32,708 bases of DNA, taken from positions 1 to 32,708 of the forward strand of contig DAIDKZ010000029.1 of NCBI GenBank assembly GCA_027449745.1, read 5' to 3'. The translations under genes were made by a program, and so were the position numbers. The DNA is from Acetobacteraceae bacterium. GTDB lineage: Bacteria; Pseudomonadota; Alphaproteobacteria; Acetobacterales; Acetobacteraceae. The notes beneath the pieces were generated by a model, which was not told where the DNA came from, made no database searches, and was given only the letters and a program-made list of their open reading frames with translations. This document shows, piece by piece, positions 32,232 through 32,708 of this stretch. How positions within the stretch are numbered: the stretch's first letter is position 1; every line of letters starts with the position of its first letter.

Positions 32232-32306
32232 GCCGACGTAGCTCAGTGGTAGAGCAACTGATTCGTAATCAGTAGGTCGTCAGTTCAATCCTGACCGTCG
32301 GCACCA
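32232..32306 (+). tRNA. tRNA-Thr (anticodon CGU)
   Basis: The cloverleaf closes fully: acceptor GCCGACG/CGTCGGC, D stem GCTC/GAGC, anticodon stem ACTGA/TCAGT with loop TTCGTAA (anticodon CGT, reading ACG), T stem GTCAG/CTGAC with loop TTCAATC, discriminator A and an encoded CCA. G1-C72 and C2-G71 are threonine identity pairs. Its 3' end is a common integration target, and the sequence after it looks foreign. Confidence 0.97.
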
Positions 32307-32343
32307 TAATTTCAGAGGTTTAGCGGGAGTAATTCGGTCTCCC

Positions 32344-32381
32344 GGGGGCACAACCGGCGCCGGGGGCACATCGGGGGCACA
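32344..32381 (+). repeat. Three GGGGGCACA direct repeats beside the tRNA
   Basis: GGGGGCACA occurs at 32344-32352, 32362-32370 and 32373-32381, 38 bases after the tRNA. Clusters of such nonamers next to a tRNA 3' end resemble arm-type sites of tyrosine integrases at the edge of integrated elements. No integrase gene is present before the window ends. Confidence 0.5.
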
Positions 32382-32660
32382 CGCGGAGGGCCGGACTCCG
32401 CTCGTTCCCCCTGGCTTCGTTGCGTTCGCAGGCTGCTCATCCGCCGTCGTCCGCGGAGGCACCCAGCCGCCGCCCGCCTGGCGGCGAGCTGGGCGCTGGC
32501 GGCCGGCGGCGCGGCCGACGGGATGCGCTCGCCGATCGCCCGGGGCGCTCGATCGCACCGTATCCCTCCGCCGAGAACCGCCTGCTGTTGGGTGCTGATC
32601 TGAGCGAGAGTGGCCGTCCTTTTGGCGACGGCATGGTGGGAAGTGTCCACGAAGGCGATC
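32382..32660. other. GC-rich stretch without a supported gene
   Basis: About 280 bases between the repeats and the partial reading frame at the right edge. Open frames exist in several phases, but all have the biased Arg/Pro/Ala composition of GC-rich non-coding sequence and none resembles a known family. The inverted repeat GTGTCCA/TGGACAC (32643-32649 and 32662-32668) spans the following start codon. Confidence 0.5.
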
Positions 32661-32708
32661 ATGGACACAAGCGTCCGGTGTGGACGGCGGCGTCGGTCCT
32701 GGCCTGAG
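32661..32708 (+). CDS. Possible IS66-type transposase accessory protein (N-terminal 16 codons, cut by window end)
   Basis: The ATG at 32661 has GAAGG five bases upstream and opens MDTSVRCGRRRRSWPE, then the window ends. A basic arginine run followed by SWPE/SWSxE is how many IS66-family TnpA and IS3-family OrfA helix-turn-helix proteins begin. Sixteen codons cannot prove it; the match is from memory of the family pattern, supported by the position beside a tRNA and repeat cluster. Confidence 0.35.
   Translation, partial: MDTSVRCGRRRRSWPE

Follow-up and report, generated by a model that had tools for sequence, protein, structure and literature searches.

The window, that is, the whole 32,708-nt stretch of DNA that was analysed, constitutes an entire contig (C29) of an Acetobacteraceae genome (G000; 3.3 Mb in 262 contigs, 92.9% complete). 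Near its right end lies an intact tRNA-Thr(CGU) gene, found with both ARAGORN and the Rfam tRNA family and located immediately downstream of an acylphosphatase gene that was identified by a Pfam scan (Table 1). The contig ends 402 nt past this tRNA, within a repeat, which leaves no room in this assembly for the rightward extension proposed in the initial annotation, and the 37 nt between the CCA end and the first of three short repeats have a GC content of 46%, compared with 68% before the tRNA. The initial annotation had described the tRNA as intact, the upstream sequence as conserved housekeeping DNA and the stretch that follows as devoid of core genes. The two tRNA searches bear out the first statement; the second agrees with the family match of the acylphosphatase and, for the remaining open reading frames (ORFs), with our judgement by eye, and no core gene was recognised by eye in the ORF list between the tRNA and the insertion sequence (IS) at the edge.

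The three repeats reported after the tRNA are exact copies of GGGGGCACA, all on the + strand, and represent the only exact copies in the window, where 0.36 would be expected. At least three copies anywhere were reached in two of 100 shuffled windows. Once one mismatch is allowed, the window as a whole shows no excess of the motif (7 found vs 11.1 expected), so the signal resides in the tight cluster of exact copies; the paired pattern does not occur elsewhere in the same genome. The third copy was matched by our three-site search pattern as GGGGGC, even though the copy in the window is exact. Between the tRNA and the repeats, a site with one mismatch, at the fourth pattern position (A), to the integration host factor (IHF) consensus quoted in a passage of PMC8407004 qualifies by this match as IHF-like and is a place where IHF may bind; the genome encodes an IHF-alpha-like protein scoring above the family cut-off.

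Table 1. Features at the right end of the window.
Feature	Position	Strand	Remarks
Intact tRNA-Thr(CGU), putative integration target	32232..32306	+	ARAGORN; Rfam RF00005 tRNA, 75.4 bits
Last 46 nt of tRNA-Thr(CGU), of which a second copy is predicted at the far border	32261..32306	+	
IHF-like site, TTTCAGAGGTTTA	32310..32322	+	One mismatch to WATCARNNNNTTR
Putative arm site 1, GGGGGCACA	32344..32352	+	Exact copy; +38 after CCA
Putative arm site 2, GGGGGCACA	32362..32370	+	Exact copy; +56 after CCA, 18 nt after site 1
Putative arm site 3, GGGGGCACA	32373..32381	+	Exact copy; +67 after CCA, 11 nt after site 2
IS66-family IS, left end, cut by the contig end	32560..32708	+	tnpA start codon at 32661

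The edge of the contig, previously noted as the start of an IS66-like element, was confirmed as such: the frame MDTSVRCGRRRRSWP, which begins at the tnpA start codon, aligns with a longer IS copy from a different genus (G008), in which the first two ORFs match HTH_Tnp_1 and TnpB_IS66, although only about 149 nt precede the contig end. This sequence recurs at 97% in another contig of the same genome (G000:C213) and at 94% where a contig of the congener G002 ends; plasmids gave no match. Copies of the IS end lie at contig ends in the window, in G002 and in G131, and inside the contig in C213. We considered joining the window to C213, which continues beyond the shared 149 nt (97%); no join is claimed, because the window ends in the shared repeat. 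Near its copy of the IS end, C213 carries an ORF for a glycine-rich, repetitive product of 932 aa (L008, 8191-10989). The IS is a separate insertion that begins 253 nt after the tRNA, and its presence alone is no evidence for a border.

Content change at tRNA-Thr(CGU) in the genus

The congener G002 is 97% identical to the window from the acylphosphatase gene through the CCA of the tRNA and unrelated beyond it, which places the break in content where the initial annotation had located it. The G002 contig ends 331 nt past the tRNA and, in place of GGGGGCACA, contains two copies of GCGGACC 11 nt apart, preceded by a perfect match to the IHF consensus. This stretch (L042:2113-2443, at the end of G002:C42), which also holds an ORF that is open at the contig end, is probably the border of a different element. 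The ORF matched no Pfam family at 1e-3, and we take it to look transposase-like. A PF13356 search found four Arm-DNA-bind_3 loci in G002, none of which was assigned to this border because they lack the GCGGACC pair; single copies occur in two of the four. Thus, the border DNA at this tRNA seems to stem from different elements in the two congeners. The comparison revealed no empty site, G002 seemingly being occupied as well, and in G001, the third genome of the genus, the end of tRNA-Thr(CGU) was not found in the assembly.

Across the family, 5 of 17 tRNA-Thr(CGU) genes are followed within 35 nt by an IHF-like site carrying no more than one mismatch. The set includes G002, excludes the window and leaves out L037, which has one base of flank; shuffled flanks gave a mean of 0.45 and a maximum of 3. 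The gene looks as if it has been reused as an insertion site, even though 12 of the 17 lack this signature.

Repeat pairs at tRNA ends and integrases

In a survey of 200 genomes of the family, the GGGGGCACA pair was matched 19 times in 12 genomes, as opposed to twice for the reversed pattern. Eleven of these pairs have a spacing of 11, four a spacing of 17-18 and four another spacing. All 15 with a spacing of 11 or 17-18, including two from the window itself, lie at a tRNA 3' end, at a tRNA 3' fragment or at an integrase start, while none of the four with other spacings has a tRNA or a related integrase in its locus. When the search was extended to a collection of 84,980 species (genome_contigs) with a pattern in which the spacing of 11 was fixed, and is hence no result, 59 stretches were recovered. 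Sixteen of them lie within 75 nt 3' of a same-strand tRNA, where 0.135 would be expected for random places in the same loci. By tblastn with three integrases as queries, 14 others lie no more than 75 nt from the point where an integrase match has its N-terminus, all in the same relative orientation; this count leaves out L122 (a 10-residue match) and L125 (a distant match 2.7 kb away). In two more (L119 and L136) the pair follows a tRNA fragment, in L112 a duplicated tRNA end comes about 140 nt after the pair, three face an opposite-strand tRNA, and to the remaining 23 none of the tRNA, tRNA-fragment, tRNA-copy or integrase contexts was assigned. The two surveys overlap, since several of these loci repeat numbered genomes (L111, L118 and L128 are G085; L135 is G131; L083 is G144; L079 and L092 are G185; L119 is G192). 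A scan of viral contigs for the repeat pair returned three loci. In the actinobacterial loci L091, L093 and L113, the pair is situated between an opposite-strand tRNA and the end of an ORF that, by eye, resembles an integrase C-terminus.

Complete elements found in relatives connect the repeats to both ends of an insertion. Genome G071 contains an intact tRNA-Lys followed by the GGGGGCACA pair; about 9 kb further along, an integrase that reads back towards the tRNA is accompanied by a second set of the repeats and by a 49-bp duplicate of the tRNA end. The same arrangement extends over 22.5 kb at another tRNA-Lys in Roseomonas acroporae (G085; 46-bp copy with one difference), over about 7.7 kb at tRNA-Thr(CGU) in Falsiroseomonas stagni (46-bp copy) and over about 18 kb at tRNA-Arg in Mesorhizobium soli (52-bp copy). 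All four of these complete elements, including the one at tRNA-Thr(CGU), the tRNA found in the window, combine an intact tRNA with a duplicated tRNA end of 46-52 bp; in D4_MAG a 46-bp copy is also present, but the left end is a tRNA fragment only. The stretch duplicated in F. stagni and D4_MAG corresponds to the last 46 nt of tRNA-Thr(CGU) marked in the window. In all four elements with an intact tRNA, the integrase combines the Pfam domains Arm-DNA-bind_3 and Phage_integrase and occupies the end away from the intact tRNA. In all six cases scanned, the pair at the integrase end precedes the tRNA copy by 136-144 nt, counted from the start of the pair; the sixth case is Roseomonas sp. CECT 9278, whose two ends are on different contigs. 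An inverted copy of the repeat precedes the pair by 17-19 nt in four of the six. The initial annotation had likened the three repeats of the window to integrase arm sites, and this comparison with tRNA ends, integrase starts and complete elements, in which arm-type repeats stand beside the tRNA as they do in the window, lends that reading support.

Two layouts can be distinguished after the tRNA. In the short one, the pair starts 11-15 nt after the CCA, and an IHF-like site was present in none of 10 rows (7 distinct places). In the long one, to which the window belongs, the first site begins at a distance of about 34 nt or more from the CCA, and an IHF-like site with at most one mismatch was found in 9 of 13 flanks, always on the + strand, whereas 300 mononucleotide shuffles gave a mean of 0.49 and a maximum of 3. 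The four flanks lacking such a site belong to M. soli (2 mismatches) and to three actinomycetes (3 mismatches each). To our knowledge, actinomycetes lack canonical IHF. The three-site form of the long layout, with a spacing of 17-18 followed by 11, occurs in 3 of 397 family genomes (the window's own, G131 and G144) and in none of the reversed control, in each case at nearly the same offset after a tRNA: the sites start at +37/+55/+66 in G131, the third with one mismatch, and at +34/+51/+62 in G144. G088 shares the first two sites (+37/+55), and its third has decayed. Among the complete elements of relatives, none has exactly the three-site layout of the window; the longer layout is represented by M. 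soli only, with two sites and the poor IHF-like match given above. After the tRNA-Thr(CGU) of G088 (L070, 1-18500), we observed by eye several transposase-like ORFs; the same region holds an Arm-DNA-bind_3 integrase, identified by a Pfam scan, whose orientation is opposite to that in the complete elements.

The window end as a candidate attL

We interpret the end of the window as attL of an element that a tyrosine integrase, carrying an Arm-DNA-bind_3/DUF4102 domain at its N-terminus, inserted into tRNA-Thr(CGU), a reading to which we assign a probability of about 0.87. Judging from the sequence, the features most likely represent a P' arm composed of the core within the tRNA, the IHF-like site and three arm sites. 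On this model, recombination by the integrase would take place between the 3' part of the tRNA and a stretch of identical sequence in the circular form of the element, which would leave the tRNA whole. The N-terminal domain of the integrase would occupy the GGGGGCACA arm sites, and a bend introduced by IHF at 32310-32322 would bring these arms and the tRNA core together, in the manner of the lambda P' arm; the IS66-family IS would have inserted later, 253 nt inside the element. The comparisons establish the anatomy of the site and, in other genomes, the association of these repeats with tRNA ends, integrases and duplicated tRNA ends, whereas we infer protein binding, the bend and the position of strand exchange, as well as the presence of the rest of the element in this genome.

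The initial annotation had pointed to an integrase and a duplicate of the tRNA 3' end as the features to be expected further to the right, and this held in the relatives with complete elements only, because the window's own assembly shows neither. No Arm-DNA-bind_3 (PF13356) domain was detected in this assembly, which is 92.9% complete and broken at the border, by the search that found the four loci in G002 and was positive in two of 14 control genomes. Likewise, one integrase protein used as a query, in a run without a positive control, returned no cognate integrase from the genome. With up to three mismatches allowed, no second tRNA-Thr(CGU) 3' end was found in the assembly, whose contig stops 402 nt past the tRNA; the assemblies of G000 and G002 each gave one copy, which is the tRNA itself, and that of G001 none. 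Two readings fit these results: the remainder of the element may be hidden where the assembly has gaps around the IS66 repeat, or the element may have decayed.

The latter would make the site a fossil border, in which arm and IHF-like sites remain from an element that no longer works, its integrase and right end having been lost or disrupted by IS insertions. We regard this as a serious possibility, at somewhat short of even odds; its odds overlap with those of the attL reading because it describes a state of that reading more than an alternative to it. The absence of both the domain and a second tRNA end from a largely complete assembly is consistent with decay, as are the IS sitting 253 nt inside the border and the several transposase-like ORFs, recognised by eye, that follow the tRNA in G088, where the same layout has a decayed third site. 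On the other hand, with 262 contigs and a break within an IS, the missing parts may sit in gaps, and the three GGGGGCACA sites of the window are exact copies. An assembly error that joined unrelated DNA after the tRNA is improbable: although the assembly is fragmented and the contig breaks off within a repeat, content shifts immediately 3' of the tRNA, the sites stand at the offset seen in G088, G131 and G144, and G002, a separate assembly, changes content at the same tRNA. Strongly disfavoured is a chance succession of G-rich repeats after a tRNA with no element involved, for which the 68% GC content of the window and the lack of enrichment of the nine-letter motif with one mismatch might speak, but which is hard to reconcile with a three-site pattern found in 3/397 genomes at nearly the same offset after a tRNA and 0 times in the control, or with 16/59 matches near a tRNA against 0.135 expected.

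Known systems and the arm-site motif

The border of a tRNA-targeted integrative element is of an already known kind: integrases with DUF4102 (Arm-DNA-bind_3), in the IntSXT subgroup and P4 cluster, belong to elements inserted downstream of tRNA genes, as described in a passage of PMC8138268. The likeness lies in the relatives that carry the repeat, which have Arm-DNA-bind_3 and Phage_integrase domains and a duplicated tRNA 3' end; the comparison is made through these relatives, the window's own integrase not being among the sequences found. Several short arm repeats beside a core are also a property of ICEMlSymR7A, and in the relatives the repeats are found beside the integrase start. The attP of that element, according to the section of PMC11963761 consulted, has the arm consensus TGKTGGTATC at five sites in 283 bp and intS beside attL, so that the arm consensus, the five-site attP and the location of intS next to attL all differ from the window. 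The same text states that IntS represses its own gene, and an excerpt of PMC2951348 describes an intS promoter in KplE1 that overlaps attL together with the arm sites there, and reports that single arm-site mutations mostly bring no relief of repression. The repeats beside integrase starts in relatives could similarly let the integrase damp its own promoter. The lambda P' arm, in the order given in a passage of PMC4880445 (core, IHF site, arm-site cluster), resembles the window, where an IHF-like sequence stands between the putative core and a cluster of putative arm sites; lambda Int, however, has a different N-terminal domain and target, and its arm sequence differs.

Among the papers listed in searches of one open-access library, none describes the GGGGGCACA motif in its title or abstract opening, and the listed papers that contain this string deal, judged in the same way, with unrelated matters. 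The wide recurrence of this exact arm motif with different tRNA targets may be new. We tentatively propose, with less than half of our confidence behind it, that GGGGGCACA pairs 11 nt apart form a single arm-site code common to related tyrosine integrases with different tRNA targets (Thr, Lys, Arg, Asn and Gly in Alphaproteobacteria), perhaps including integrases of Actinomycetes. If this is true, the code outlives switches of tRNA target, and the repeat alone would flag borders without an integrase. The recurring layout provides a sequence signature for island borders in fragmented genomes, even where no integrase is found, and offers direct targets for studying the separate evolution of arm-site specificity and tRNA target choice. 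At the locus itself, the border would mark a place where the chromosome accepts foreign DNA, and the comparison with G002 suggests that different elements within one genus reuse tRNA-Thr(CGU). The docking site in the window is unusually readable, and the element, or what remains of it, would be of an ordinary kind.

Repeats of the GCGGACC type were also seen by eye in the first 95 nt after tRNA-Thr(CGU) in G007 (L025/L047) and G030 (L049), in two to three copies of which the last two are 11 nt apart, and may represent another arm-site code that has this spacing too.
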